A DNA stretch of 64,000 bases from a virus, in the IMG/VR virus record IMGVR_UViG_3300023174_000038, positions 248,001 through 312,000 of that record; one strand, written 5' to 3'. A program made the position numbers and the translations under genes. Positions 13,485 to 47,008 of the stretch are shown here, one piece after another. Under the pieces are notes generated by a model. It was not told the DNA's origin and ran no database searches. It saw only the letters and a list, made by a program, of their open reading frames with translations. The first letter of the stretch is position 1. Every line of letters starts with the position of its first letter.

Positions 13485-14810
13485 ATGAGATTTACCGAGA
13501 TTATAACTGAAAGCACTGATCTTATACCCTTTGCAGATGGGCATTTGGTTGCCAGTAACCATTTTATAAAAGATAGAAGTATCAAAAGAAATATATCTAT
13601 GGATAATATTTTACAGGTATTACATAAATTGGAAAAAACAAGAAAAGAAGAATTATTTAAAATGCCTTTTGTTAATTTTGTTGTAAAGGCCCCTCATCTT
13701 GGTATAGGTTTATCTAAACAAAAAGATTGGCATGGTGACATAGTATATGTAATTACTACCGCTCACGAAACTTTAAGAGTAGGTGATCTAGAAGATGTAT
13801 TTTATTTAGAAGAAGAAACTGGCACCAGACTCAAGGACCTAGCAAAAATTGCTACAAATATGCCGGATGCTGATTTTTGGTTAATACGTAAAGGTAGTGA
13901 TAAAACTGTTGGAAAACCTGTTAAAGAATTTGATCCTTCACGTATTGGTATTAAAGTTGTAAGAACTGATGTGCTTGACCCAAACTATCTTTATTATGTA
14001 ATGATGCATTTACACAATCAAGGACAATTTGCACGTATAGCAAATGGTACTACTAATTTAGTTAATATTACTGTAAATGATATTGCTAATATTCCATTAG
14101 GTCAACAAGGTATGACCGAAGCAGGTAGTCCGGCACAACAGGCTGCTATTGCTATTAATATGAAAAAACATCATAAAAAACCTAAATCAGAAAGCTTAAA
14201 TGAATTTGTATCTGATGATGGTGATGAAGAAGAATCACTACGCAAATATGCTAAGTTGTGGTATAACGGTGATGATACTACACAACAACAAGTTGAAAAA
14301 ATCTTAGCACGTATGGGTTGGGAAATTGGTGAGATAGAATCAGAAGAAGGCGGTGCATTTGTTGTACAGTCCGGTGATATGAATGGTGATAGTTACATTG
14401 GTTTCACTGTTAATGATTTAACTGAGAGTACGGAAAGGTATACAAAAATGAAAATAGAAGAACTAATTACTGAAGGCGAGAATTGGTCAAAGCACAATAA
14501 TCCAAGAGCAGGTGGTATGAGTAAAAAGTCTGTAAAGAGTTACCGCCGCAGTCATCCTGGTAGTAAGATTCAAACAGCAGTAACAACTAAACCAAGCAAA
14601 CTTAAAAAGGGTAGTAAGGCAGCAAAGCGCCGTGCTAGCTTCTGCGCTAGAATGCGTGGGATGAAGAAACATCGTACAGGTGCTAAAACAGCAAATGATC
14701 CAAACAGTAATATCAATAAAAGTTTACGTAGATGGCATTGTGAAAGCATTGAACAAATGCAAGAGTTAGTAATGTTAGCTGAACAAAAAATTAGGGATCT
14801 TAAGAAATGA
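13485..14810 (+). CDS. probable head-cargo polyprotein with capsid-targeting-like N-terminus and DUF6321-like domain
   Basis: A 441-residue mosaic. The N-terminus MRFTEIITES resembles the T4 capsid-targeting peptide ending in a prohead-protease site (I-T-E/S). Further (I/L/M)-x-E sites separate blocks: GMTEAGS near 206, SLNEFVS, DLTES and ELITEG near 325. The block before ELITEG (LRKYAKLWYNGDDTTQQQVE) is a small acidic domain. The C-terminal block (HPGSKIQTAVTTKPSKLKKG ... FCARMRGMKKH ... RRWHC) looks like DUF6321, a basic likely nucleic-acid-binding domain. Next gene starts by ATGA overlap. Packaging and cleavage are inferred. Confidence 0.7.
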   Translation: MRFTEIITESTDLIPFADGHLVASNHFIKDRSIKRNISMDNILQVLHKLEKTRKEELFKMPFVNFVVKAPHLGIGLSKQKDWHGDIVYVITTAHETLRVGDLEDVFYLEEETGTRLKDLAKIATNMPDADFWLIRKGSDKTVGKPVKEFDPSRIGIKVVRTDVLDPNYLYYVMMHLHNQGQFARIANGTTNLVNITVNDIANIPLGQQGMTEAGSPAQQAAIAINMKKHHKKPKSESLNEFVSDDGDEEESLRKYAKLWYNGDDTTQQQVEKILARMGWEIGEIESEEGGAFVVQSGDMNGDSYIGFTVNDLTESTERYTKMKIEELITEGENWSKHNNPRAGGMSKKSVKSYRRSHPGSKIQTAVTTKPSKLKKGSKAAKRRASFCARMRGMKKHRTGAKTANDPNSNINKSLRRWHCESIEQMQELVMLAEQKIRDLKK

Positions 14811-16180
14811 ATTTTGTAGAACTATTTGAGGGTACAACACCCAAATTACCGGGTGCTGTAGGTGGCATCAAAGTTATGAGTATGGATCAATTCCTTGCTC
14901 AATCGGGTGATGAACCGGAAGAAAAAATAGATGAAATGTCTTCCGAAGAATTAGATAAAATGTCCCCTGAACAATTAGCACAGTTTACACATAAGGCTAG
15001 AACTGATAAAGCTAAGGTAGATCCCAAAACAATTGATCAGGCTTATGGTAAAAGTATGGATATAATGTTTCCGGATCGTAAAAAATCAGAACATAATAAA
15101 CAACAAGGTGTGGCGGAAGCAACCAAACTTCCAGCACAAACACGTGAACTAAAGGGTCAAGAACTAGATGATTACTTAGATAGAATTCGTAATCGTGAAA
15201 AGGGTAAAACAGACAAATATAAACTACCTTACATCCATCGGTCAAGTGTAGTAAAATACTACAATGAAGAAGGTAAACGCTACGATACAGACCAAATCAA
15301 AACAGCATTAGGCGTTCGTCCAAAGAAACTTCTTAAACAAAATGAGAAGATGAAACATAGTAATGGTGAACTAGAACAATTCTATAACATTGGTTTTGCC
15401 GCATTAGTTGGTATCGCACTAGACGAAGGAACTAACGAACTAATTGTAGTTAATACATGTCCGGGTGCTGGATCATGTAAAGTAGATTGTTTTGCTATGA
15501 AGGGAGGCAAAGTACAATTTGAAGGTCCTTGGTTAAGCGACGGAAGAATTCTTACATTCTTATTGAATGATCCAGATGGTTTCTTTAATCAATTAAGTGC
15601 AGAAATCACAAAAGAAGAAAAACAAGCACAAAAAGGTGGTTACAATTTAACTATTCGTTGGCATGATGCTGGTGATTTCTTTAGCCCAGAATATATGGAT
15701 CTAGCATTTAAGTTGGCGGCTGCCCATCCTGATGTTAAATTCTACGCTTATACAAAGATAGCCGATGCGGCATTAGGCCAAAAGCCAAGTAACTTTATTG
15801 TTAACTGGAGTGAAGGTGCAAGCACTAGCCAAGAGAAACAAGTTAAAGCACAGGATGCTAATTTAGATAAAACTAAAAATAGTCGTATTGTTCCAAGTAA
15901 GTTATTCTATGACTTGTTAAAGAAAGATAAGGATGGTAAGTTAGATAAAACTGCCGACGGTGCATGGCAACCACGTGATGCAGCCGCATTGGAAGAATTG
16001 AAAGATAGATTAGCGGCCGCATATAATCTAAAACGTGATAGTATCATTGATTACAATGAGATGATGGCCACCCCACAAAAGAATAACATTAAGAAATGGA
16101 ATGTTATTATTGCTCCGGGTGAGGGCGATATCAGTGCTAATAGACAAGATGTATTATCAACATTATTATTGAAACACTAA
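14807..16180 (+). CDS. GP88-like domain protein with capsid-targeting-like N-terminus
   Basis: A 457-residue protein. N-terminus MNFVELFEGT carries an L-F-E/G site; QQGVAEATKLP near residue 105 carries V-A-E/A. The C-terminal 330 residues match the phage gene-product-88 domain: VNTCPGAGSCKVDCFAMKGG (three clustered cysteines), IRWHDAGDFFSPEYMDL and DVKFYAYTKI. Function of GP88 is unknown; the cysteine cluster may bind metal. It overlaps the previous cargo-like gene by 4 nt. Packaging is inferred. Confidence 0.75.
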   Translation: MNFVELFEGTTPKLPGAVGGIKVMSMDQFLAQSGDEPEEKIDEMSSEELDKMSPEQLAQFTHKARTDKAKVDPKTIDQAYGKSMDIMFPDRKKSEHNKQQGVAEATKLPAQTRELKGQELDDYLDRIRNREKGKTDKYKLPYIHRSSVVKYYNEEGKRYDTDQIKTALGVRPKKLLKQNEKMKHSNGELEQFYNIGFAALVGIALDEGTNELIVVNTCPGAGSCKVDCFAMKGGKVQFEGPWLSDGRILTFLLNDPDGFFNQLSAEITKEEKQAQKGGYNLTIRWHDAGDFFSPEYMDLAFKLAAAHPDVKFYAYTKIADAALGQKPSNFIVNWSEGASTSQEKQVKAQDANLDKTKNSRIVPSKLFYDLLKKDKDGKLDKTADGAWQPRDAAALEELKDRLAAAYNLKRDSIIDYNEMMATPQKNNIKKWNVIIAPGEGDISANRQDVLSTLLLKH

Positions 16181-34062: not shown

Positions 34063-34960
34063 TTATTGTATTCCTGATGAACCGGCTGAGCTATACAATG
34101 CTGCACTTAAAGGACCACGTACACTTGCTGTTGCTGTATCTGTTGCATATGTAATTCTATCCACTAATGACGTTGCAGAAAATCCTCCTGCAAACCAACC
34201 ATAACTGTTATTACCAACTGAGGTAAAATATCCTCTACTAGAGCTAAGTGGGCCACGAATACTAGCGGTAGCAGTATCTGATGCATATGTAATACGTGAA
34301 ACGGTTGATATAACACTACTTCCACCTGCCCACCACCCATATGTGGTATTATCAGAAGATGCTGCCTGTGCATATGTACTTAGACCAAGTGGACCACGTA
34401 CACTTGCCGTTGCTGTATCTGTTGCATATGTAATACGATTGACTGTTGACACACCGCCTGGTATACCTCCGCCACCAAACCAACCATCAGTACTAATTCC
34501 GGCCGCCGCAAACCTAGAATTAGCCAAACTAAGTGGACCACGCACACTTGCTGTTGTTGTATCTGTTGCATATGTTACACGATCTACTAATGACGTTGGT
34601 GCACCCAAAGTGACCCCGCCACCAAACCAACCATCAGTAGTATTTCCGGCCGCAGCTAAATAAAATTTGGCTGCACTTAATGGGCCCCGAACACTTGCTG
34701 TTGCTGTATCAGTTGCATATGTTATTCTATTTACGGCTGATGAAGGTCCATTAACGTTGCCACCGACCCAACCATTAGTAGTATTGCCGGCACCTGCTGC
34801 GCTGCCTGTACCTGTACTTAATGGTCCGCGAATACTTGTTGTAGTAGTATCTGTGGTAAATGTAATACGATTGACAGTACTACGTACAGCAGGATTTCCT
34901 CCACTGACCCATCCTGCTGTTGCTTCAGATGGAGGTGCTGCCGTAAGCGTCCATCCTCCG
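34063..34960 (-). repeat. six tandem approx. 135-nt coding repeats
   Basis: The kelch-like gene contains six copies of a unit whose conserved part encodes RITYATDTATASVRGPLS-like strands. High similarity allows unequal recombination; the one-repeat gene at 33806 may be a product. Confidence 0.7.
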
Positions 34961-35001
34961 CCCGATATTGTTACACCGCCACCACTAAATGTTACTGACA
35001 T
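34063..35001 (-). CDS. kelch-like repeat adhesin/tail fibre protein
   Basis: A 312-residue protein with a short Gly/Ser N-terminal leader (VTISGGGWTLTAAPPS) and six repeats of about 45 residues. Each has GW(F/V)GG, then RITYATDTATASVRGPLS and an A-rich turn. Six copies fit a six-bladed beta-propeller, a receptor-binding architecture. Repeats are alike at DNA level too. Late octamer GATAAATA at 35020-35027 and SD AAAGGGAA support late virion expression. Confidence 0.7.
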   Translation of the reverse strand: MSVTFSGGGVTISGGGWTLTAAPPSEATAGWVSGGNPAVRSTVNRITFTTDTTTTSIRGPLSTGTGSAAGAGNTTNGWVGGNVNGPSSAVNRITYATDTATASVRGPLSAAKFYLAAAGNTTDGWFGGGVTLGAPTSLVDRVTYATDTTTASVRGPLSLANSRFAAAGISTDGWFGGGGIPGGVSTVNRITYATDTATASVRGPLGLSTYAQAASSDNTTYGWWAGGSSVISTVSRITYASDTATASIRGPLSSSRGYFTSVGNNSYGWFAGGFSATSLVDRITYATDTATASVRGPLSAALYSSAGSSGIQ

Positions 35002-36039: not shown

Positions 36040-36972
36040 TTAAGAACCGTAGGCTGCGGCTCCAAGTTCGCCTCTAGCAGTGCCCACCCCGGTAGTATCT
36101 GTAGCAACCACGCCTGTATTTGATACTAGATTAGTCATTGATACTCTTACTCCAACCTCACCGTATCCAAAGATAGCTTTATCAGTTCCATAACCTGCGG
36201 CTGCAAGATTCATTCTAGCAGTACCGACTCCGGTAGTATCAGTTGCGACAACACCGGTGTTTGATACTAGATTGGTAATTGAATAATAACCACCATCAAA
36301 TCCATAACCAAATATAGCTTTACCTGTACCGTAACCAGCGGCCGCCAAACTATTTCTAACAGTACCGACACCCGTGGTATCTGTTGCTACTACTCCTGTG
36401 TTTGACACTAGGTTGGTTACTGCTGTTCTAGCACTTCCATATCCATATCCAAAAATAGCTTGTCCACTACTGCCGTAGCCGGCAGCTGCCAATGCCTGTC
36501 TAGCTGTACCAACCCCTGTTGTATCTGTGGCTACTACGCCTGTGTTTGAAACTAAATTAGTCATTGAGAACACAATAGTATTATTTGTTCCATATCCAAA
36601 TAAGGCTTTATCAGTGCCATACCCTGCGGCCGCCAAACTAGTTCTAGCAGTGCCCACTCCAGTTGTGTCATTGGCAACCACGCCTGTATTACTTACTAAA
36701 TTGGTTATTGCCGTATTACCGGTAGAATACCCGTATCCAAAAATAGCTTTATCTGTACCGTAACCTGCGGCTGCAAGTTGATATCTAGCAGTGCCCACAC
36801 CAGTTGTATCTGTAGCAACTACACCCGCACTTGTTACTAGGTTGGTTATTGCTGTTACACCTACCCCACCAATGTATCCATATCCAAATATAGCTTTATT
36901 ACCGCCTGGAGGTGGTGTAATAGCCCATCCTCCGCCATTTAATGTTATTCCACCTGTAATTGTTATTGACAT
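36040..36972 (-). CDS. kelch-like repeat adhesin/tail fibre protein
   Basis: A 310-residue protein with a leader like that of the 34063 adhesin (ITGGITLNGGGWAITPPPGG). It has six repeats of about 48 residues, each KAIFGYGY ... TNLVSNTGVVATDTTGVGTA then LAAAGYG. Its repeat sequence differs completely from the 34063 gene while the leader is kept, which fits swappable receptor-binding propellers on a shared attachment stub. Receptor specificity unknown. Confidence 0.7.
   Translation of the reverse strand: MSITITGGITLNGGGWAITPPPGGNKAIFGYGYIGGVGVTAITNLVTSAGVVATDTTGVGTARYQLAAAGYGTDKAIFGYGYSTGNTAITNLVSNTGVVANDTTGVGTARTSLAAAGYGTDKALFGYGTNNTIVFSMTNLVSNTGVVATDTTGVGTARQALAAAGYGSSGQAIFGYGYGSARTAVTNLVSNTGVVATDTTGVGTVRNSLAAAGYGTGKAIFGYGFDGGYYSITNLVSNTGVVATDTTGVGTARMNLAAAGYGTDKAIFGYGEVGVRVSMTNLVSNTGVVATDTTGVGTARGELGAAAYGS
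36060..36900 (-). repeat. six tandem approx. 144-nt coding repeats
   Basis: Repeats encoding the TNLVSNTGVVATDTTGVGTA strand are nearly identical in protein and much alike in DNA; a substrate for repeat-number change. Confidence 0.7.
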
Positions 36973-36982
36973 TTTTTAACCT

Positions 36983-37936
36983 TTATTGAAAAATTTCTGG
37001 ATGTGCTTTGCCAAATATCTTAATATACTTGCCAGCCATTACATCCGCTTCAGCTTCTATTGGACTACCAGGATAACTATCACCCGGCTTAATCATATTT
37101 AATTCACCCTGACGTACATGTGTTAATTCATGGAACACAGTACGTAATATATCTACTAAATTTCTATTAGCACAATAAACCCATACTTCACCCGTCTCTG
37201 GATTATGTCTTCCAGTATGATGACCTTCTTGTGCTTCATCACTATCATAACTAAACTCTATCTTTGGAGTATTTTGTAAATTCAACTTCTTACTTGTCCA
37301 AGCAAGAAACTTCTGTACAATAGGATTACTATTCAAATCTTCTTGTTCAGCTTCTGTAATGTAGGGCTTTAATAACTCTGGATCATATCCTTTATGTCTA
37401 GCAGAATCTCGTAATCGTCTTAACCCTTTAGCTTCAATTTGTCTTATTCTATCTCTAGACAAGTCAAACCTATCACCAATCTGTTGTAATGTCATGTCAT
37501 ACCAAAATCTTAAAATTAATACTTTTCGTTGGTCATCGGTTAATCTGTCTAAGCCGTTTTGGATAATTTGTTTAATACTATCATCTGTTGCAGGCTCCTC
37601 ACCAGCTGGATCTTTATATGGTACTCGTTCTGCCCTATTATAAATATCGTTTGGATCATTTAATGTTGGCATTTTATTATGAGCTCCACGATATGTAGCA
37701 CCATCTGGGTTGTAATGTCGTCCTCCAACCTCATCTAGTTTATCTTTAATCCAATTGTCTGGAGTTTTATGATATTTTCTAACAAATAAATCATGCAATG
37801 CATCACCAGTAATACGGTGTTTCTTTGCTATGTTTTTCATTAGCTTATCAATGGTATTATAGTCGTGTTTCTCTAAGCTAGGAAGTTTCTTAGCTAGTTC
37901 AACTGCGGCTGATTCGTATAGTTCTATTGCTCTCAT
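36983..37936 (-). CDS. probable head-cargo protein: sigma-70 region 4 domain fused to zinc metallopeptidase
   Basis: A 317-residue protein. It starts MRAIELYESAA, a capsid-targeting-like peptide with an L-Y-E/S site. Residues 12-65 are a helical domain (HDYNTIDKLMKNIAKKHRIT). Residues 120-178 match sigma-70 region 4 (LTDDQRKVLILRFWYDMTLQ, RDRIRQIEAKGLRRLR). A second site, I-T-E/A at 193-196, precedes a metallopeptidase domain with HELTH at 269-273 and a Glu-rich helix (PIEAEADVMAG) that can give the third zinc ligand. An ATG 10 codons downstream of a GTG is chosen, because the late octamer lies between them. Confidence 0.75.
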   Translation of the reverse strand: MRAIELYESAAVELAKKLPSLEKHDYNTIDKLMKNIAKKHRITGDALHDLFVRKYHKTPDNWIKDKLDEVGGRHYNPDGATYRGAHNKMPTLNDPNDIYNRAERVPYKDPAGEEPATDDSIKQIIQNGLDRLTDDQRKVLILRFWYDMTLQQIGDRFDLSRDRIRQIEAKGLRRLRDSARHKGYDPELLKPYITEAEQEDLNSNPIVQKFLAWTSKKLNLQNTPKIEFSYDSDEAQEGHHTGRHNPETGEVWVYCANRNLVDILRTVFHELTHVRQGELNMIKPGDSYPGSPIEAEADVMAGKYIKIFGKAHPEIFQ

Positions 37937-37941
37937 ATTAG

Positions 37942-37949
37942 TATTTATG
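37942..37949 (-). promoter_or_regulatory. late-promoter-like octamer CATAAATA
   Basis: CATAAATAC on the minus strand, 5 nt before the ATG at 37936; leaderless geometry. Confidence 0.6.
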
Positions 37950-38039
37950 CTCACTTTTGATTTCACAGTAGCGAATTGTTACATCAGGCCAGCAGCCGGC
38001 CCACACTTGAAAACGCAAAGGTCCTAAGGTAGTGTGTTC
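37950..38039. other. structured intergenic region
   Basis: About 90 nt, more GC-rich than its surroundings, between the nuclease stop and the late promoter. It has CACACT/AGTGTG (38002-38007 with 38031-38036) and GGCC/GGCC (37987-37990 with 37998-38001) pairings. The 13-mer at 38020-38032 equals the GGTCCTAAGGTAG core of bacterial 23S rRNA (I-CeuI target region). No ORF fits. Confidence 0.4.
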
Positions 38040-38852
38040 TTAATCATTCGTCTTACATTTAGCACGTTTAGCATTGGTTAATGCTCCGTAATCTACTGGC
38101 CATTCTTTACCAGGCTGTAACTCTTTAGCGTTTGCAGGGAAATGGTACTTTACACCTGCATATTCTTGTATCTGTGCTAATGGAGCACGAAACTGTGTCA
38201 AATCATTACCCAAATTAACATATGGTTTCTTATGTGGGAACTGCCATCCAGCAACTTCATGTGTAACATTGTTAATAACAATCTTGTAGTAACCATGAGG
38301 AACAACTACACCATTACCAATCTTTTCATTACCTGTACCATAATATGCACCTACATAAATTGTGAATGGTTGTTTTAGTTGTACTGCCCATCCACGTATA
38401 CTTGTTTCTAATAGTTTCCATATGCCACGATTCAATGAACCATGTTGAGGATACATATTAGTCATTAAAAAACTTTCATATTCTACTTGTTGTGTCCAAG
38501 ATAGATCACCATCTGGTGCAGCATGACCTTTGTCATAACCCGTAGCTACATAATCATCAGGCTTTGCACCATCTTTAATACTAGCATCAGCAACAAAAGC
38601 GTTTGTTCTTGGGAAACAACCTAAAGCATTTTCTGGCTTAAGAGTGTATGCTACATATACTGGTATCTTTGCTGGCGAATCATATGCTACAAGATATGCT
38701 TCACGACATATTGGTTGTGATGGTCTTGCTGTTTGTGCAAATCCGTACGGACTATGTATTTGACATTGTTGTACTGGTAAGGGAGCACGTTGATCCCATG
38801 CAAATATATTTGTTGATATTAGTACTGTTGCTATTGCTATTATTTTTTTCAT
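38040..38852 (-). CDS. exported DNA/RNA non-specific endonuclease (NucA/NUC1 family)
   Basis: A 270-residue nuclease with a signal peptide (residues 1-18, cleavage after IFA). Catalytic motif D107-K-G-H110 (YDKGHAAPDGD), and the metal-binding LNRGIWKLLE (N141, E149) follow the beta-beta-alpha-metal fold. It degrades DNA and RNA without sequence preference. Export to the periplasm could recycle nucleotides, clear competing DNA or help superinfection exclusion. It is located inside the cargo-gene cluster. Confidence 0.85.
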   Translation of the reverse strand: MKKIIAIATVLISTNIFAWDQRAPLPVQQCQIHSPYGFAQTARPSQPICREAYLVAYDSPAKIPVYVAYTLKPENALGCFPRTNAFVADASIKDGAKPDDYVATGYDKGHAAPDGDLSWTQQVEYESFLMTNMYPQHGSLNRGIWKLLETSIRGWAVQLKQPFTIYVGAYYGTGNEKIGNGVVVPHGYYKIVINNVTHEVAGWQFPHKKPYVNLGNDLTQFRAPLAQIQEYAGVKYHFPANAKELQPGKEWPVDYGALTNAKRAKCKTND

Positions 38853-38862
38853 TCAATCCTCT

Positions 38863-39489
38863 TTATCCTACTACTGTACGATTCTTTACTTTACTAATTT
38901 CTACACTGAGTGGTGTATTAGTTGTTTTTGCTCTAAATATCTTATCAGTCTCACGTACACCTGGCTTAAGTTCAGATGCTACAATTAAGAATCTTGCTCT
39001 ATTCTTTCTCATGCCAATAAACTCACCTACTAATACTTGGTAATTAGGATAGTTAGGTGTTAAATCTATTTTAGGATTTTCTTGTTCATTGATGCTTTCT
39101 GACACACCTTGTGCAATTGCTTCACGTGCCTGACGTTCATTTTCTTGTTTGAATCGTTGCATGGCTTGACTATCATTTATTTGTCCACGATCCAGTGCTT
39201 GCCAAATTGGCAAATCAAATGTGAGATATTTTTTTTGTACTGCTTGAGCATAACTAACTTCATTGCCACGACCTTGCCAATCAGGTTTATGCCCCCAAAC
39301 AACAGATACAGATTGACCATTTGGGAAGTTGATACGCATACGCTCTCCATAAAATACATATGTACTACCTTGCCATGTAAAAGCAAGATCGCCATTAACT
39401 GTTTTACCCATAGACCAGCCATGCTTTTTTAACAGTGAATCAACTGCGGCTTGATTATCATTCTCAATAATAAACTCTGTTGCTCTCAT
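38863..39489 (-). CDS. probable head-cargo protein with capsid-targeting-like N-terminus
   Basis: A 208-residue protein starting MRATEFIIEND (I-I-E/N). First block ends at GVSESINEQENPKI, where two sites (V-S-E/S, I-N-E/Q) lie together near residue 135. The N-terminal block (KKHGWSMGKTVNGDLAFTWQ, YVFYGERMRINFP) is a small beta domain; the C-terminal block (YQVLVGEFIGMRKNRARFLI) is another. Neither has a recognised function. Overlaps dps by one base (TAATG). Confidence 0.65.
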   Translation of the reverse strand: MRATEFIIENDNQAAVDSLLKKHGWSMGKTVNGDLAFTWQGSTYVFYGERMRINFPNGQSVSVVWGHKPDWQGRGNEVSYAQAVQKKYLTFDLPIWQALDRGQINDSQAMQRFKQENERQAREAIAQGVSESINEQENPKIDLTPNYPNYQVLVGEFIGMRKNRARFLIVASELKPGVRETDKIFRAKTTNTPLSVEISKVKNRTVVG

Positions 39490-39929
39490 TACTCACGTTC
39501 TCTTTTTAATGTTGAACGGATAAACCATGCTTTCTTACCGTATAGGTCTTGCAGTTCAGCCATGTAGTTAGCAATACCCTGTTGACGTTCATTTGTTGCT
39601 TCATCAAACATAGCAACAACAAGTTGACCTAATGTTTCACAATCTTGTAGTAACTCAATAAACATGAGTTCAGCTCTTGGAACTTTAGTTTGGTCTTGAA
39701 TGATACTTAATTCAGCATAACGTGTTAGACTGCCAGGAGTATAGTGACCTAATATTCTGATATATTCAGCTACAGGATCAATAGTAGCATTTACATCTTC
39801 ATACAATGTATTAAAGAATTCGTGATATTGTGGGAAGTTACTTCCCTCCACATTCCAATGAAAGTTTTGTGATTTGATAGCAAAGCTTTGTGTACTAGCT
39901 AATAGTACTTTTAAATTATCTGATAACAT
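39489..39929 (-). CDS. dps: Dps/ferritin-like protein
   Basis: A 146-residue four-helix-bundle protein. The ferroxidase ligands of Dps are present: H24 (NFHWNVEG), H36 (YHEFF), D51 and E55 (IDPVAEYIRILG). Dps proteins bind DNA, store iron and protect from oxidative damage. In this phage it could protect DNA in the cell or be packaged; it lacks a capsid-targeting peptide. Operon-linked with cargo genes on both sides. Confidence 0.85.
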   Translation of the reverse strand: MLSDNLKVLLASTQSFAIKSQNFHWNVEGSNFPQYHEFFNTLYEDVNATIDPVAEYIRILGHYTPGSLTRYAELSIIQDQTKVPRAELMFIELLQDCETLGQLVVAMFDEATNERQQGIANYMAELQDLYGKKAWFIRSTLKRERE

Positions 39930-39938
39930 GATTACTCG

Positions 39939-42900
39939 TTAGTCTTTCTTTTTTGTATTAACATTGATGGCTTTACCACTACGGTCAGGATTAGGATCTT
40001 CTCTACGTTTACGTTGAGCGGCACTTGCACGACCCTTCTTACCTAGACTATGTGCTTTACTTTGTGGCAAGCATTTTGGTTTACCTTCTCCTGGTTCTCT
40101 AGCACATGGACCTTTAATCTTTCCTTTAGTATCCATGCGAACCCACTTTTCTTTATTAAACCAATCATGCAAACTTTCATCTGCCCTTTCAATACCTTCT
40201 AGTATAGAACTTTCATTCTTCTTCCCACCGTTACCCCAGTTACTTGCGCCTTTGTTGCGACACTTAACTAATGCACCACTGGCATAAGCACTTGGCCATA
40301 CTTTATAACGACTCTTTACTTTGTAGTAGCAAGCATCTTTCTTTTCGTTCATTAATTCTTCACTAACCATTTCGCCACCACAGTGTGGGCAACTTTCACT
40401 GTGTTGGTCTTCATTTGTTTTATTTTTAGCACAACTACCCGGAAAGCCTGCTTTAGTACCAGCAACTCTATGATAGCCGGACCAGCATTTCAATTCATCT
40501 AGTTGATCTTTTGAATGGTCACCGTGTGTTTCACACATACCGCAGTCTTCACAGACCATTTCCATTTCAATGCTTTCATTGTGCTTCTTCTTACCTGCAC
40601 AATGAGCCTTTTGACTAAAGCCTTTAGGATGACTACAGTTAATACTGCTCTTATATTTTTGACTCCAGCCTTCATCCATCTCTTGTTCATTAACGTAAAT
40701 TGCGGCAGTTGTTTTATTTAAACTTTGTGGATCTTTTACGCCGGCTGCTACTTTAATTGCTTTAACTTTTTGTCTATAGTCATCAGCATATTCGGCTAAT
40801 CTGTAGCCTAACATTTTACCAATTTCTTCAGGTGTAGCTGGTTTATCTTGCGGAGTATTTGCACCAAAAGTTGTGTCTAGTATCTTAGGCCATGCCATCC
40901 AGACCATATTTGATAACTCTTTATATGCTTTGCTTCTTAATTCTTTAATTTGAGCTTCAGCCTCATCTTCAGAAATACTAGGTGCGGGTGCAGGAATAGT
41001 TCCTTTGAATGCTTGAGCATTACCGGCACCGCCTAATCCTGCGGCAGCTAATGCGCCGGCGCCTGCTGCCTTACCCATGTTACCTAAAAACCCTCTACGG
41101 TTCATATCAGCTTCTTTCAAACCTGATTTTTTACGTATATACAATCTATCCTGTAATATTGAAATAGCATTGTCTAACTTTTTATTCAATGATTGATAGT
41201 TATCTTTTGCACCATACTTAACGTGCATACTAGTATCAGTATCATTCTGCATTGCAGGAGTTAACAAACCTTTACGTTCTAATCTATCAACTAACTTATC
41301 TAATAGTTCTTGCTTTTGTATAGCATTATCTAATTGTGCTAATCTAGCTTTTAATACAGAATGTTTTTCACCAGGTTGTGCAACTGGTGTTGGTTGAAAT
41401 TCTCTACGTAAACCTTGTTGTGCTTTTTGTACTGTGTTCTTTTCAAAATCTTGTCTCCAAGCTTCTATTTCAGCTTCACGCTGTTTCTCTATAGCTAATT
41501 TAGCTTGAATCAACGCATCCAATGATGTAGATTTTAATTGATCACCTAAGTTTTCATCAATTGATGCATAACGCTTATCATCTAAATCATCGTGGTAACT
41601 TCTTTGTGGTGGTTTTTTTAGCTCTATTGGTTTCTTAGATGAACCTCTATAACCACGTTCCCATGCCGCTGCACCTGCTGCCGCACTTTTACCATTTTTA
41701 ACAAAGTGATTAATGACTTCTTGTTTACTGTTAAATCTAGGTGATTCTATACCTTCATTTGTTGCCATTTCGCCATCATTACTATGACCATAATATTTGG
41801 CTACTTTTTGTAAATCAGCAGAATTTCTATCGTTAAGATAATCAGTTACTAAATCATGTATCTGATATCTTTGTTCTTGCGGGGCTGGTAATTCTATTTC
41901 ACCTTCACTTGCATCAGCAATATGTGCGGCGCCGGGACTGTCTAAGAACCATATCTCATCATCCTCATCCCATTCTAATCCCCATTTGTCTATTGTTGCA
42001 GTTAATACATAGTTGTTAGTAGTACCTACTACAAATTTGTTACCGCCTATATAACGTGAGCTATTTGGTTGACCGTAATCTTTTGGTCCTTTAGGGCCGC
42101 CAGTTTGTACAAATTCATTTATACCTTGACTGATACCAGATTTCTTTGTATCATTAGCAAATTGTTTTTTAGTTGCACGAACAATACCACTGAAACGTTT
42201 ATCACCACGCTTGTAATCGCCCTCTTTATCAGCTTTTCCTGCATCGGCAGCGGCCGCTGTTTTATATTGTGCTAGTTTCTCATTAGAGATTTCATCTAGT
42301 TGTGATTCAGGCATTAATCCGTGCTTTGTAATACGAGCATCTAATTCATCACGCTCTTTGGAATATTTTTGTATAAGTTCTTTATTACCTACTTGAATTG
42401 CTTGTCTAAGTTTTTCCTGAATGGCATCTGCTAAATCATAGTATTGATCCATTTTCATTCTAGTGGTATTATCTTCTTTTATTGTTTTACCTTGACCTAA
42501 TTGTTGTAAATCACTTGTTAATACATCTTGTGTAACACTACCCATACCTTTTGAAATCGTAATGCGAGAATGTTTACGATCCTTACTCATAGCAACTACT
42601 TTTGATGGTTGTCCAAAATACTTAACAGTATCACCTATCTGTATGTTCTTCATAGATACATTACCAACATTAACCGGTTTATCACCTGCAAAGTTACCTT
42701 GATCTCCCCATGGGTCATCTAAACTTTCATTTGTACCAGTAGCTAATCTATCATGGTCACTATCACGTTGGGCTTTTTCTGCCGCTGCCTTCATAGCACG
42801 ACCTTTAGCAAAATCTTTTTCTTGTCTTATTAAACCATATGGATCATACTCATCATCATCTGTTTGTGTATGTCTACCACGTTTAGGATATGATGGTGCA

Positions 42901-42983
42901 TCTGCCCCGTATTCTCTTGCTGGATCATTATGTCCGTAAAAAGGATTGGATTCGTTTATTATACCTTTTAGAATATTGCTCAT
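39939..42983 (-). CDS. giant mosaic head-cargo polyprotein
   Basis: A 1014-residue protein made of short modules separated by (I/L/V/M/T)-x-E sites: IINES near 10, TNESLDD, TIKED, INEFV, TNEGIE, SIDEN, LKEAD, SISED, YVNEQ, QLDEL, MNEKK, LEGIE. Between them lie a Lys/Ala-rich block, an acidic domain (WDEDDEIWFLDS), coiled coil, a twin-arginine-like segment (MNRRGFLGNMGKAAG, 627 onward), several Cys-rich knuckles (CEDCGMCETHGDH, SCPHCGGEM) and a basic C-terminus (GPCAREPGEGKPKCLPQSKA). Packaging and processing by a prohead protease are inferred. Confidence 0.7.
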   Translation of the reverse strand: MSNILKGIINESNPFYGHNDPAREYGADAPSYPKRGRHTQTDDDEYDPYGLIRQEKDFAKGRAMKAAAEKAQRDSDHDRLATGTNESLDDPWGDQGNFAGDKPVNVGNVSMKNIQIGDTVKYFGQPSKVVAMSKDRKHSRITISKGMGSVTQDVLTSDLQQLGQGKTIKEDNTTRMKMDQYYDLADAIQEKLRQAIQVGNKELIQKYSKERDELDARITKHGLMPESQLDEISNEKLAQYKTAAAADAGKADKEGDYKRGDKRFSGIVRATKKQFANDTKKSGISQGINEFVQTGGPKGPKDYGQPNSSRYIGGNKFVVGTTNNYVLTATIDKWGLEWDEDDEIWFLDSPGAAHIADASEGEIELPAPQEQRYQIHDLVTDYLNDRNSADLQKVAKYYGHSNDGEMATNEGIESPRFNSKQEVINHFVKNGKSAAAGAAAWERGYRGSSKKPIELKKPPQRSYHDDLDDKRYASIDENLGDQLKSTSLDALIQAKLAIEKQREAEIEAWRQDFEKNTVQKAQQGLRREFQPTPVAQPGEKHSVLKARLAQLDNAIQKQELLDKLVDRLERKGLLTPAMQNDTDTSMHVKYGAKDNYQSLNKKLDNAISILQDRLYIRKKSGLKEADMNRRGFLGNMGKAAGAGALAAAGLGGAGNAQAFKGTIPAPAPSISEDEAEAQIKELRSKAYKELSNMVWMAWPKILDTTFGANTPQDKPATPEEIGKMLGYRLAEYADDYRQKVKAIKVAAGVKDPQSLNKTTAAIYVNEQEMDEGWSQKYKSSINCSHPKGFSQKAHCAGKKKHNESIEMEMVCEDCGMCETHGDHSKDQLDELKCWSGYHRVAGTKAGFPGSCAKNKTNEDQHSESCPHCGGEMVSEELMNEKKDACYYKVKSRYKVWPSAYASGALVKCRNKGASNWGNGGKKNESSILEGIERADESLHDWFNKEKWVRMDTKGKIKGPCAREPGEGKPKCLPQSKAHSLGKKGRASAAQRKRREDPNPDRSGKAINVNTKKKD

Positions 42984-42984
42984 A

Positions 42985-43866
42985 TCACGCTTTCTTATTC
43001 TTGTTATCTAACATGCCACGCTTATTAGCTGTTGCCCAAGCAATGTTCTCCGCTTCTTTTTTACTGTGACCTAATTTCTTTTCACTTTGTGCTACATGCT
43101 TAACCATACGGTCTACTTTAGCACCTTCATCTATTGGTGCATGAACTGGACATTGGTCTTGACCATGTGTTCTACACACACATTTCAAATTAGGTTTGCC
43201 TTCTGCTACGCCCTGTTGACCATACGTATCAAGAATTTGTCTAACATAAAAATTATAAAAACCACGACGGCTATTGTATTCTCTATCTCCAAGTACAGTC
43301 TTTAGTGCTTTTACAGCATCAGTTACTTCTGGGCCACGCATTATTTTTAATGAGTCAGTAACTAGTGTATCACCTCTTTGTGAGCCTTCTGATACACCTT
43401 GAACTTGTTTACCTTCTAAGTATTCACGTATAGTGTTTAGATAATCATTGGCTTTAATAATCTTTTCTTGTACCCAACCATCAAGACCTTCTTCTTCACT
43501 AAGGTCTTTAATCATTGAATAAACTTGTTGAGCATTCTTTGCGGCACTGAATAGATCACTACGTGCCATCTCAACTTCGTGGTCTATACGACTTTGACCA
43601 TGTGGCACAAATCCATTTTTACGACTACGTCCTTGTCCCGGAACGACAATAACATCATCTTCTTGTAGTTCTGCTTCACTTATTTCAGCACTTTCATTAA
43701 TGCTGTTAGCATATGGAGCACTAGTCTTTTTACCCTTGAATAGTGTGCCTACTTTCTTGCCACCATATATGCTAGGATTTCCCCTAGATTGTGTGCCACC
43801 TAATGGTGAATTTACAGTAGCTATTGCACCTGCTGTTGTAGTTTCAGTGATTTGTTTGATTTTCAT
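42985..43866 (-). CDS. probable head-cargo polyprotein with capsid-targeting-like N-terminus
   Basis: A 293-residue protein starting MKIKQITETTTAG (I-T-E/T). More sites: SINESAEISEAELQED near 58-70, QGVSEGS and QGVAEGK, and PIDEGAK. Blocks: Gly/Ser start (GGTQSRGNPSIYGGKKVGTL), a helical middle (RSDLFSAAKNAQQVYSMIKD), a Cys/His block (CVCRTHGQDQCPVHAP) and a basic tail (HVAQSEKKLGHSKKEAENIA) of a known small phage module. Late octamer at 43889-43896. Function of the blocks unknown. Confidence 0.7.
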   Translation of the reverse strand: MKIKQITETTTAGAIATVNSPLGGTQSRGNPSIYGGKKVGTLFKGKKTSAPYANSINESAEISEAELQEDDVIVVPGQGRSRKNGFVPHGQSRIDHEVEMARSDLFSAAKNAQQVYSMIKDLSEEEGLDGWVQEKIIKANDYLNTIREYLEGKQVQGVSEGSQRGDTLVTDSLKIMRGPEVTDAVKALKTVLGDREYNSRRGFYNFYVRQILDTYGQQGVAEGKPNLKCVCRTHGQDQCPVHAPIDEGAKVDRMVKHVAQSEKKLGHSKKEAENIAWATANKRGMLDNKNKKA

Positions 43867-43888
43867 AAGGATTTCCGTACTAATAGTG

Positions 43889-43896
43889 TATTTATC
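43889..43896 (-). promoter_or_regulatory. late-promoter-like octamer GATAAATA
   Basis: GATAAATAC on the minus strand, 22 nt before the ATG at 43866; the leader contains GGAAATCC. Confidence 0.6.
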
Positions 43897-43920
43897 AAAA
43901 TACCATAATATGGAAACTTA

Positions 43921-44835
43921 TTAGATTTTGCCTGAGGGCTTTGCTGTTGGTGGGATACCTGCTCTACTAGTATTCCAATAGAATGCTTTTGCGTTCTTTT
44001 TGATACTGTCAGGCTTAACATCTACTGTTAATGCTGTACTAAAACGAGGGTCATTCTTCTGTTTTTTGCTTGGGATATAGCCCGAAGCTTCACCTACATA
44101 CATTTCATCTACATTAGCGTACATATTGTCTAAACTTAAATGTTTGCTATGTAATTTGTCTCTCAAGTCATATAGTTTTGTAATATAGCCCCTGCTACGT
44201 AATGCTTTATATGCTAAATTTTCAGGGCTAAACTCACCACCTTTATCTAATCCAGCTTGACGATATTGTTTAATCTTTTTTAATACTTTATTGACTTTAC
44301 TTATTTTATCAGATTGTAATACTGTATCAATAATGTCTAATAGTTTTATATATTTTGCTTTAGTAGCTGTTTGGTCAAAGTTAGCTCTACGTTTTGCAGG
44401 CATACGCAACCATTTATTATCTTTAACACTATACTCACCTAAGCTAGTGACAGGTTCTGCCGCATCTTGTATGTATAATTCTACCGGAATTCCATTGATA
44501 GTAATATCATGTGAATCATTGTATAAATCTTTTTTAGCCTTAAAGAATTCATGGTAAATGTCATCGTCAGGTAAATCCTTCATATTGACTAAGATATGTA
44601 AATCTAAATCACTATGGTCTGTATAACTATAGGCTGCATTACTTCCGGATATAGTAATATCACGTACATCCAAATCATGTATACCCATCTCTTGTAAGAA
44701 ATCTTGTGCTATGTGTTTTAGTTGTAGTTCAACTTCAGGTTGAAGATGTTGTCCACGGAATAACTTTGGATTGAGGTTATCGTGAAATGTCACAGCATCT
44801 GACATTTTGAATGAATGTAATTCTTTTAAGTCCAT
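43921..44835 (-). CDS. nucleotidyltransferase-fold protein with cargo-type C-terminal tail
   Basis: A 304-residue protein. The motif ISGSNAAYSYTDHSDLDLHI (GS-x-SD-D) is the minimal nucleotidyltransferase signature, with a third acidic position possible in PVELYIQ. It might modify an RNA or protein with a nucleotide. After YVGEASGYIPSKKQKNDPRF (V-G-E/A site near 250) there is a basic tail I recognise as recurring at the ends of phage cargo-like proteins. Leaderless geometry behind a late octamer. Confidence 0.7.
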   Translation of the reverse strand: MDLKELHSFKMSDAVTFHDNLNPKLFRGQHLQPEVELQLKHIAQDFLQEMGIHDLDVRDITISGSNAAYSYTDHSDLDLHILVNMKDLPDDDIYHEFFKAKKDLYNDSHDITINGIPVELYIQDAAEPVTSLGEYSVKDNKWLRMPAKRRANFDQTATKAKYIKLLDIIDTVLQSDKISKVNKVLKKIKQYRQAGLDKGGEFSPENLAYKALRSRGYITKLYDLRDKLHSKHLSLDNMYANVDEMYVGEASGYIPSKKQKNDPRFSTALTVDVKPDSIKKNAKAFYWNTSRAGIPPTAKPSGKI

Positions 44836-44839
44836 AGAG

Positions 44840-44847
44840 TATTTATC
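44840..44847 (-). promoter_or_regulatory. late-promoter-like octamer GATAAATA
   Basis: GATAAATAC on the minus strand, 4 nt before the ATG at 44835; no SD. Confidence 0.6.
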
Positions 44848-44857
44848 TAAAAACTAT

Positions 44858-44877
44858 AAAGCCCCTTTCGGGGCTTT
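44858..44877 (-). terminator. Rho-independent terminator
   Basis: Perfect stem AAAGCCCC/GGGGCTTT with a GAAA tetraloop in the minus direction, right after the glycosyltransferase stop, followed by ATAGTTTTT. Confidence 0.85.
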
Positions 44878-44878
44878 A

Positions 44879-45850
44879 TTATGCGGCAGTAATTTTCTTT
44901 ATTTCGTTACCATCTTTATCGATGAACTTCATTCCGAACTTTTCTTGCTGTTCTTGTAGGAACATAGGACCAACTGTTTTCATTAGATGTTCCTGATTTT
45001 CCATACAGAATACATAAGATCCTGAGTGACGTAATAGAATACGTTTGTCAACCCAAATCTTACCACCTAAATCACGCCAGTTCTCACAGAATGTCCAATC
45101 TTCACTATAATAACGATTCTGACGGACCGCTGTATCAAAGTAGGTTTTTAAGTGTTGGTCAAACTTAGGATCTAATCCAATGTCGTTTTTATATTGCTTA
45201 ACAGCAGGATGCGATTTGAGTTTTTCAAACACATGTTTCTTCATCAATAAGAAACCTGTACCTGCTTTAGATACTTCTTGGAATCCATCTGGTCCTTCTT
45301 CTGCACCTTCAAATCCATTAACAACCCATTTAATTGGCATTGTTTTCATTGGATATAATCCTGCACAAACATCTACGTTACGGTTCAATAGAACTAATAG
45401 ATGCCATGGTTCCCAACCAATGTCAGCATCAACAAAGAATAAATGTGTTGCGTCTGGCATATCTAGGAACTTAGCAGTCAATGTATTTCGTGCTCGGCTA
45501 ATAAGTGATTCATTAACCATTGTTTCTAATGTCCAATCAATACCAAGTTGACGAGCTGTATTAGCCCACTTGATAAATGACATGAATGTTGATTCTGTTA
45601 ACATACCACCATAGCAGGGCATAGCGATATGTACTTTAGTAGTTTTTAAAAAGTCTACATTAACTTGAACTTGTCCGGGACTCGGTGCTTGTTCTTTTGC
45701 AGCCTGTTCAGCGATTTCCTGTATTTTTTCTACGGGAACTGTTTTTTCTGACATGTCTACTTTAGGTGCTTTAGTAGCTTTAGTAGTTGTTTTTGTTGCG
45801 GCTTTTGCAGGTTTGTCTGCTGCCTTGTCGATTGTTTTCTTTGTTGCCAT
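44879..45850 (-). CDS. glycosyltransferase, GT-A-like
   Basis: A 323-residue protein. A Lys/Ala-rich N-terminal tail of about 60 residues (KAATKTTTKATKAPKVD) precedes the catalytic domain: VHIAMPCYGGMLTEST, NESLISRARNTLTAKFLD, THLFFVDADIGWEPWHLL (DxD) and AGTGFLLMKKHVF. It then has the SEDWTFCENWRDLGG segment with the late acidic residue. Third to fifth glycosyltransferase-like gene of the window. Ends at a strong terminator. Confidence 0.8.
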   Translation of the reverse strand: MATKKTIDKAADKPAKAATKTTTKATKAPKVDMSEKTVPVEKIQEIAEQAAKEQAPSPGQVQVNVDFLKTTKVHIAMPCYGGMLTESTFMSFIKWANTARQLGIDWTLETMVNESLISRARNTLTAKFLDMPDATHLFFVDADIGWEPWHLLVLLNRNVDVCAGLYPMKTMPIKWVVNGFEGAEEGPDGFQEVSKAGTGFLLMKKHVFEKLKSHPAVKQYKNDIGLDPKFDQHLKTYFDTAVRQNRYYSEDWTFCENWRDLGGKIWVDKRILLRHSGSYVFCMENQEHLMKTVGPMFLQEQQEKFGMKFIDKDGNEIKKITAA

Positions 45851-45901
45851 TTGATCCTCTTGTTAAGATACTATTATTTACATCAAAACAAGGGGGTCAA
45901 A

Positions 45902-47008
45902 TTATTTTTCCTCTAGATAATCCACACTTTCGGTAACCTTAACTGGATCTTCTTCTGCGTTTCTAAACTCAAAACGACTTTGTTGTAGATTGTACTTTTT
46001 AATAGCTAATTCTAAATATCTATCAATTAAATTGTACGGTACTTTACGATTAACTAACAGAGGTGTTCTTCTTGGACCATCTAAGTAATATACATCTACA
46101 TATTGTGGATGAAATACTTTAGCTGTTTTTTCTGCTTCTGCCAAACCTTGCTTTACTGTTTTATAAGCACTCTGTAGCACAAACATATATTCTTTATCTG
46201 TTATATCCGGTAGTATACCTTCAACTGCTGTATTGAAAAAGTCATCACCTGCTATCATATTCATAGCATGTATCATACCCAATTCATCAACATTTTTTTG
46301 TTTTGCTACTTGTATAGCAATTTCCAATAGTTTTCTTATTCTACGATTTCTATCATTCTCGCCACCACCATCACCCCTGTCGCTACTCGGCGGGACAAAT
46401 TCATTTAATGATCCTTCTGACAATTCATTACCCATACCCATATCTAACATCTTAACAACATTAGCGGCTAGTTTAGGATTCTTTTGTGTTGCAGGATATA
46501 AACTCATAACCATTGCTGTCTTACGCTTATCATTCAATGTAGGCCATGCATTACGTATCTCTGTGGCACTAGTGATACCAGGACCAAATTCTACTGTGGG
46601 TAAATAAGCCATGTAAGCATGTTTGCCAAATGGTTGTACATTTTCGCCTGTGTATGGTTGAAAGTATGCCGGACTACCGTCTTTCTTTGTACCACCTGGT
46701 TTAGGACTTTCATTACGATCCTTTTCACTACGAACAAAGATTACCACGTCTTGTTCTGGATTAAACTTATCAGTGATTTCTCTAGGTTGAAATGGACTTT
46801 TAACTTGTATAAAATGTCCAGGACTAACTCCTGCTACCTTAGCTAGTTTTTCTTTAATAGCAAAGGGGAAAGGTCTGGTCTTTGTATCATTGGTAGCGGC
46901 TACATATACATCAGCACCGGGAAATGCTTTAAGTGCGGCTTGGTACAACGATGCATGACCAGCATGAAAAGGATGAAAGCCTCCTGGCATTATAACAACT
47001 GTACTCAT
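45902..47008 (-). CDS. HxGH nucleotidyltransferase fused to cargo-type modules
   Basis: A 368-residue protein. Residues 1-165 are an HxGH nucleotidyltransferase (MPGGFHPFHAGHASLYQAAL; late TSATEIRNAW). Then come two prohead-protease-like sites in NELSEGSLNEFVPPSSDRGD, a helical module (RKLLEIAIQVAKQKNVDELG), a third site GLAEAEK and a C-terminal beta module (VYYLDGPRRTPLLVNRKVPY). Fused enzyme plus cargo-like modules is unusual. ATG at 47008 is 1 nt after the previous stop. Confidence 0.7.
   Translation of the reverse strand: MSTVVIMPGGFHPFHAGHASLYQAALKAFPGADVYVAATNDTKTRPFPFAIKEKLAKVAGVSPGHFIQVKSPFQPREITDKFNPEQDVVIFVRSEKDRNESPKPGGTKKDGSPAYFQPYTGENVQPFGKHAYMAYLPTVEFGPGITSATEIRNAWPTLNDKRKTAMVMSLYPATQKNPKLAANVVKMLDMGMGNELSEGSLNEFVPPSSDRGDGGGENDRNRRIRKLLEIAIQVAKQKNVDELGMIHAMNMIAGDDFFNTAVEGILPDITDKEYMFVLQSAYKTVKQGLAEAEKTAKVFHPQYVDVYYLDGPRRTPLLVNRKVPYNLIDRYLELAIKKYNLQQSRFEFRNAEEDPVKVTESVDYLEEK

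Follow-up and report, generated by a model that had tools for sequence, protein, structure and literature searches.

What is encoded by the genes of a large T4-like phage that open with a short peptide ending in (I/L/V)-x-E and carry similar sites further inside? The question arises from a 64,000-nucleotide stretch (the window) covering bases 248001-312000 of the 348,701-bp virus record IMGVR_UViG_3300023174_000038, and chiefly from its cluster of genes at 36983-47008. An original prediction made from the letters alone read the products as polyproteins that are packaged in the head, cut into modules by the prohead protease and injected with the DNA. Our analysis leads to a broader reading, to which we give a probability of roughly 0.7: the genes probably encode head-packaged, injected cargo polyproteins that are cut by a gp21-type protease and reshuffled at joints serving as both cleavage and recombination sites.

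N-terminal tags and the prohead protease

Six flagged window proteins begin with a T4-like peptide ending in (I/L/V/F)-x-E. The original prediction had counted at least six genes with such starts, and all of the peptides that it named are present and in frame; its IINES corresponds to residues 8-12 of the protein starting at 42983 (MSNILKGIINE/S). The tags are 8-11 residues long, with the consensus M-[RK]-A-x-E-F-[IL]-x-E. A degenerate form of the pattern has six matches in the 348.7-kb record (two of them internal to other frames or genes) and none in the reversed control, while MRAxEFxxE, searched across whole records, has 37 matches in 10 of 11 records, again with no match for the reversed control.

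Among about 310 related loci, MRAx[EDQ][FLI]..E begins 150 proteins that fall into 32 clusters of unrelated bodies. Whole-protein single-linkage clustering was dropped, as shared modules merge 328 proteins into one cluster; bodies of 100 amino acids (aa) were therefore clustered instead. The final glutamate of the tag is specific: 27 unrelated body clusters in relatives are majority-tagged when it is kept, against 0-4 when it is swapped for D, Q, K, S, A, G or R and 0-5 for other residues overall, except T, which gives 9.

The likeness to internal head proteins of T4, also part of the original prediction, is borne out by direct comparison, since the starts of ipII and ipIII (MKTYQEFIAE), alt (MELITELFDE) and gp24 (MAKINELLRE) match the window tags. 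As a control, a similar pattern applied to T4 itself picks about 15 of 236 open reading frames (ORFs), including gp2, gp21, gp22, gp24, ipII, ipIII and alt. In T4, the first 10 residues are enough for packaging, with residues 8 and 10 directing processing (PMC9026906), and Ip1-3, which are injected anti-restriction proteins, have the leader alone in common (PMC12373910). The features of T4-type internal proteins are found together here: a leader, about 10 aa long, with (I/L)-x-E at its end on the six window genes and the 32 body clusters, unrelated cargo behind one conserved leader in the 27 clusters, and a gp21-type protease with a T4-type capsid in the same phage.

That protease, whose presence in the genome was the first check proposed, is encoded at C1:98606-99037 in the same record as the window (Peptidase_S77, PF03420, E 1.7e-28), and it matches the PHROG head maturation protease too. 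It lies together with a gp23 homologue (PF07068, E 5e-99; C1:100477-101484) that is 35% identical to T4 gp23 and has its nearest named relatives in jumbo phages, e.g. Vibrio phage 2.275.O, PA5oct, Phosso and 121Q. This gp23 contains KKQLLAE/SSAG in the region corresponding to the T4 cut site FLTE/AEIGG; given the LLAE/SS site, the same cleavage motif is expected on the main substrate of the protease. Seven of eight related records longer than 240 kb have gp21; tags, and the DNA word described below, occur in gp21-bearing records, whereas the eighth (G006, 316 kb) has no gp21 match and neither the tag nor the word.

Some further observations concern these genes. Right behind gp23, at the position equivalent to T4 segD, a GIY-YIG-like ORF was recognized by eye (L004:1625-2602; C1:101625-102602). 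Two more short tagged genes (MRAIEFVTE and MRAKEFITE) lie beside a terminase-like gene on the minus strand (L328:8385-9154; C1:16385-17154), and tag pairs about 390 bp apart recur in several relatives. The DNA-end protector of T4, gp2 (NC_000866 76061-76885), begins MAIFQIINES, a sequence similar to that with which the 1014-aa window protein opens, MSNILKGIINES. In the protein at 42985-43866 (minus strand), residues 9-18 after the MKIKQITE tag, TTTAGAIATV, resemble the predicted mature N terminus of gp23, SSAGTTTAGNIATL, and are possibly a capsid- or core-binding mimic.

Module exchange and the linker word

The sites recur between domains, as had been claimed: GVSE/G and GVAE/G at 42985-43866; LSE/G, LNE/F and GLAE/A at 45902-47008; LNE/F and LITE/G at 13485-14810; GVSE/S at 38863-39489; and GVAE/A at 14807-16180. 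A specific linker pattern, CARGGNNTNNCNGARG (Q-G-hydrophobic-small-E-G/A), occurs five times in the window against 0.02 expected, each time in a flagged gene, and tag sites and junction sites have in common a preference for a small P1' residue (over 60%).

Relatives up to 90% identical to the window proteins elsewhere differ by entire inserted modules, and the sites mark the boundaries. In 389 insertions or deletions (indels) of at least 20 aa with clean flanks, scored at a tolerance of 4 aa together with control motifs, an [ILVM]xE cut is found no more than 4 aa from the junction in 61-65% of cases, against a background of 14%, and sites are present at both ends in 51% (about 2% expected). 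Near the junctions [ILVM]xD, xK and xS are at or close to background, and both-end matches amount to 1% for xD and to 0-6% over xD, xK, xS and the reversed motif. At zero tolerance, sites fall at both ends in 60 of 430 cases (0.3% expected); the number is low because gaps in the alignments shift by a few residues, and the 4-aa tolerance with its control motifs was added for that reason. Of the 71 independent clusters into which the junctions were grouped, 38 are associated with sites (p about 7e-15). Relatives lack, for example, the sigma-70 region 4 module at 37352-37729, exactly between KLDE and YITE. As in viral polyproteins cut by a viral protease, one predicted cleavage motif is repeated at module boundaries, and modules occur elsewhere as separate genes: in G006 (locus L227), the record with no gp21 match, relatives of the small basic modules are stand-alone genes without tag or linker, an arrangement seen in this one record.

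The protein set contains 11 distinct signals resembling those of twin-arginine translocation (Tat; RRxFL plus a hydrophobic stretch). Ten of them start 2-4 residues behind a predicted cut, against a background of 6.6% (p about 1.5e-11). Several sit deep inside chains (residues 109-917) and therefore could work only after cleavage, being useless in an uncut protein; two tagged proteins with such signals have peptidase M48 and GH19 domains. In AlphaFold models folded islands separate at the sites: the helical domains of the 293-aa protein break at 160, 222 and 247, and the 1014-aa protein forms folded islands that start or end near 170, 290, 477, 624 and 771, with disorder between them. Models of the Cys-rich modules were uninformative (predicted local distance difference test score, pLDDT, about 35).

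Between linkers, of which there are up to six per frame, we count 95 module families, 75 of them singletons, with a median length of 103 aa and an isoelectric point (pI) above 8 in 59%. Most modules have no Pfam match. Among the domains identified in proteins with a tag or linkers are ART-PolyVal (on a tagged protein), zeta-toxin-like kinase, NUDIX, GNAT, NT5C, M48, GH19, DUF6321 and DUF5872-like, the NT5C, GNAT and DUF5872 matches being weak or near cut-off. T4-GC119 of cyanophages, which shares small modules, is mentioned solely as hypothetical in PMC3037559.

At the DNA level, the commonest linker, QGVAEG, is mostly spelled (AG)CAAGGTGTGGCGGAAGGC, a word of 17-20 bp with rare codons. GTG appears in 47 of 56 independent contexts and GCG in 51; in the remainder of these proteins their shares are 14% and 9%. 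The word is conserved from about -2 to +17, at silent positions too, with background immediately outside; the set behind this profile is partly enriched by exact-word loci, and several positions are fixed by the search pattern, whereas the codon counts in independent contexts are unaffected by this enrichment. All 212 distinct contexts (212/212) keep the same reading frame and lie within open frames on the coding strand. The word occurs in at least 120 viral stretches; a cellular origin was rejected, as a scan of cellular genomes (257 Gb) gave three matches. Before/after allele pairs (L264/L263, L215/L219, L135/L130 and L010/L006) combine the left flank of one linker with the right flank of the other, and the crossover falls inside GTGTGGCGGA(A/G). 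Point variants (QDVAE, QGMAE and QGLAE) mostly retain the rare GCG codon, as expected if the word decays.

We consider it about an even bet that this word of some 20 bp, with its silent positions kept, is at once a recombination joint and an in-frame prohead-protease cut site, QGVAE/G. Injected effector modules could then be added, dropped or reordered in one step, with frame and processing intact. In the open full texts searched we found no boundary sequence that is intragenic and codes for a protease site.

Putative cargo genes of the window and their neighbours

The genes and sites to which these results refer are as follows.

13485-14810, plus strand: tagged polyprotein of 441 aa; tag MRFTEIITE/S at 13485-13511; sites QGMTE/A (cut after 14120), SLNE/F (14204) and LITE/G (14474)
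14505-14735, plus strand: C-terminal DUF6321 module of the 441-aa polyprotein
14807-16180, plus strand: tagged protein of 457 aa; tag MNFVELFE/G at 14807-14830; sites KIDE/M (14935) and QGVAE/A (15118); modules of 65-233 aa gained or lost in this region among relatives
15104-15119, plus strand: sole near-exact linker DNA word in this genome, CAAGGTGTGGCGGAAG
15329-15838, plus strand: GP88 domain of the 457-aa protein
36983-37936, minus strand: tagged three-part protein, its ATG at 37936 within the ORF 36983-37966; tag MRAIELYE/S at 37913-37936; N-terminal module ending KLDE/V, cut at 37730
37352-37729, minus strand: sigma-70 region 4 module of the same protein, ending YITE/A
36986-37351, minus strand: zincin-like metallopeptidase module of the same protein (HELTH, by eye)
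38040-38852, minus strand: untagged DNA/RNA non-specific endonuclease with a Sec-type signal peptide, adjoining cargo genes; perhaps a periplasmic nuclease
38863-39489, minus strand: tagged protein; tag MRATEFIIE/N at 39463-39489; sites QGVSE/S (cut at 39097) and SINE/Q (39085)
39489-39929, minus strand: untagged Dps/ferritin-like protein between two cargo genes
39939-42983, minus strand: 1014-aa polyprotein with N terminus MSNILKGIINE/S; candidate boundary sites at residues 170, 231, 290, 477, 624, 771, 830, 880 and 929
39942-40670, minus strand: four small basic or Cys-rich tandem modules, each behind [LMI]xE: GWSQKYK..., LKCWSGYHRV..., DACYYKVKSRYKVWPS... (DUF5872-like, E 0.0014, below cut-off) and, after ILE/G, WFNKEKWVR...CLPQSKAHSLGKKGRASAAQRKRRE
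40671-41111, minus strand: module LKE/ADMNRRGFLGNMGKAAG..., with a Tat-like sequence just past the predicted cut, ending MDE/G (by eye); missing from relative L014, with equivalent modules in relatives picked up by the Tat scan
42985-43866, minus strand: tagged polyprotein of 293 aa; tag MKIKQITE/T at 43843-43866; sites SINE/S, QGVSE/G (cut at 43387), QGVAE/G (43201) and PIDE/G (43126)
42988-43125, minus strand: C-terminal basic module of the 293-aa protein, KVDRMVKH...WATANKRGML
43921-44835, minus strand: nucleotidyltransferase-like protein; many different modules in relatives at VDE...GE/ASGYIPS (residues 244-249)
45902-47008, minus strand: cytidylyltransferase-like protein with no N-terminal tag; linkers NELSE/G (46415), SLNE/F (46400) and QGLAE/A (46136); homology to the S-SM1 virion cytidylyltransferase (T4-GC190) not shown

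The gene at 44879, also inside the cluster interval, is untagged. At lower coordinates than the cluster, two repeat-rich proteins (34063-35001 and 36040-36972, minus strand; SxTNLVSNTGVVATDTTGVGTAR...KAIFGYG) vary in repeat number among relatives and appear tail-fibre- or adhesin-like.

Competing explanations and related systems

If the cargo-polyprotein reading is right, the N-terminal capsid-targeting sequence of 8-11 residues would, as in T4, take each polyprotein into the core of the prohead. The gp21-type protease would cut after [I/L/V/M]-x-E ahead of a small residue, both removing the tag and splitting the chain at inter-domain linkers. Modules of about 50-280 aa would go into the head alongside the DNA and enter the host as separate pieces; their kinds would include small basic or Cys-rich modules, ADP-ribosyltransferase, NUDIX, GNAT, kinase, sigma-70 region 4 and Tat-exported peptidase or GH19-type enzymes. 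The nearly fixed word would act as a direct repeat at which recombination adds or removes modules in frame, making each joint a cleavage site and a recombination joint together. The tags, the sites with module exchange at them, the fixed word with recombination inside it, and gp21 and gp23 are seen in the sequence itself; packaging, cleavage, injection and the functions of single modules we infer, with support from gp21 and gp23, tags on unrelated cargo, module exchange, Tat placement, folded islands and effector-like domains. The original prediction is thereby supported in part: some genes of its interval do not belong to the set, the bare motif is not enriched, and the constant in-frame DNA word was missed.

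Several observations weigh against our reading. The bare (I/L/V)-x-E motif occurs 0.9-3.4 times per 100 aa in flagged genes, a range that the remaining window shares, so the enrichment over background that had been proposed as a check fails for it; it was therefore discarded as evidence, with support resting on position, and enrichment holds for the specific linker and the N-terminal tag (six against none). Valine is commonest at linker P3, outside the T4 consensus (L/I) as originally given, and in the 1014-aa protein some [ILVM]xE matches (residues 190, 681 and 731) fall within predicted helices, which means that the matches cannot all be sites. Many of the indels are related by descent. The 45902 protein carries linkers yet no tag. 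Tag-bearing fragments of 101-171 kb gave no match when searched for gp21, probably because they are incomplete, and the window genome has one near-exact copy of the word (15104), its recombination signal being therefore mostly decayed or never formed. In the open full texts we found no virion proteomics, mass spectrometry or cleavage assay for this phage or a tagged relative.

Might the proteins be tagged and packaged yet remain uncut, with QGVAEG-like linkers as flexible joints of intact multidomain injected proteins? The tags are supported independently of the linkers, disordered linkers between folded islands fit this too, and polyvalent proteins are known multidomain injected phage proteins (PMC5512222). 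We nevertheless think it unlikely, because linker and tag sites share a hydrophobic P3, a P1 glutamate and a small P1', the xE requirement at junctions is specific (1% for the D control), and Tat signals right behind internal sites, up to residue 917, would be useless uncut. Recent duplication and spread of related, ordinary cytoplasmic phage proteins, with neither packaging nor proteolysis, would explain why module families are common to several ORFs and why single linkage merges so many, and sigma-70 region 4, NUDIX or nucleotidyltransferase modules might, once normally expressed, function in the cytoplasm. Homology alone is very improbable, however, given the tag on unrelated bodies, its match to T4 capsid-targeting sequences, the Tat placement, and a gp21-less record that has the same modules stand-alone without tag or linker.

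The word raises a different doubt, namely that it is primarily the target of a site-specific recombinase, homing endonuclease or other mobile element, the encoded peptide being incidental. Its sharp bounds over 17-20 bp, its conserved silent positions, its spread over viral stretches and the alleles that cross over inside it would all suit such a target. This too seems rather improbable to us: the word keeps one coding-strand frame in every context and is nearly absent from cellular genomes, its variants retain [VILM]xE and a small P1', and modules exchange at word-less sites as well.

Among known systems, IPI-III and Alt of T4, which are cut by gp21, resemble the cargo polyproteins in their short tag ending EF-I-x-E or E-L-F-x-E, unrelated cargo, and gp21 with gp23; unlike them, the proteins described here have several modules per chain, repeated internal sites, a common V at P3 and a fixed DNA spelling. 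The inner-body proteins of phiKZ and SPN3US, cut by the prohead proteases gp175 and gp245 respectively, are likewise giant-phage head cargo processed after x-x-E, with several cuts per propeptide, but their motif is S/A/G-x-E or A-x-E, the cuts mostly take propeptides off single mature proteins, and the passages covered (PMC9026906 and PMC10052503) describe neither tandem cargo modules nor a shuffled linker. Polyvalent proteins (Iyer et al. 2017) are multidomain injected phage proteins with effector domains, and effector domains, ART-PolyVal among them, are seen in the sequence of some modules here; capsid-targeting tags and gp21-type sites do not define polyvalent proteins, and in PMC5512222, searched for cleavage and proheads, we found no constant linker word. 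PeSL cassettes (Arbiol 2010; Comeau 2014; cited in PMC4503421) use short repeated DNA to shuffle T4-like accessory genes, but PeSLs are intergenic early promoter and stem-loop motifs, whereas the word here is intragenic, in frame and encodes a protease-type site. In the passages covered of open full texts on T4, phiKZ/SPN3US, polyvalent proteins, PeSL-citing work and 2026 jumbo phages, the tandem, shuffled, linker-coded arrangement is not described.

If the cargo-polyprotein reading holds, phage cargo polyproteins cut by a prohead protease would be established. The 'boundary sequence' is an old idea in modular phage evolution, and the word would give it a concrete, testable case, in which a repeated recombining word stays harmless because it encodes a cut site. 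The tags and linkers would also amount to a rule by which injected effectors, many of them without a Pfam match, could be recognized from sequence in a large group of uncultured T4-like phages.

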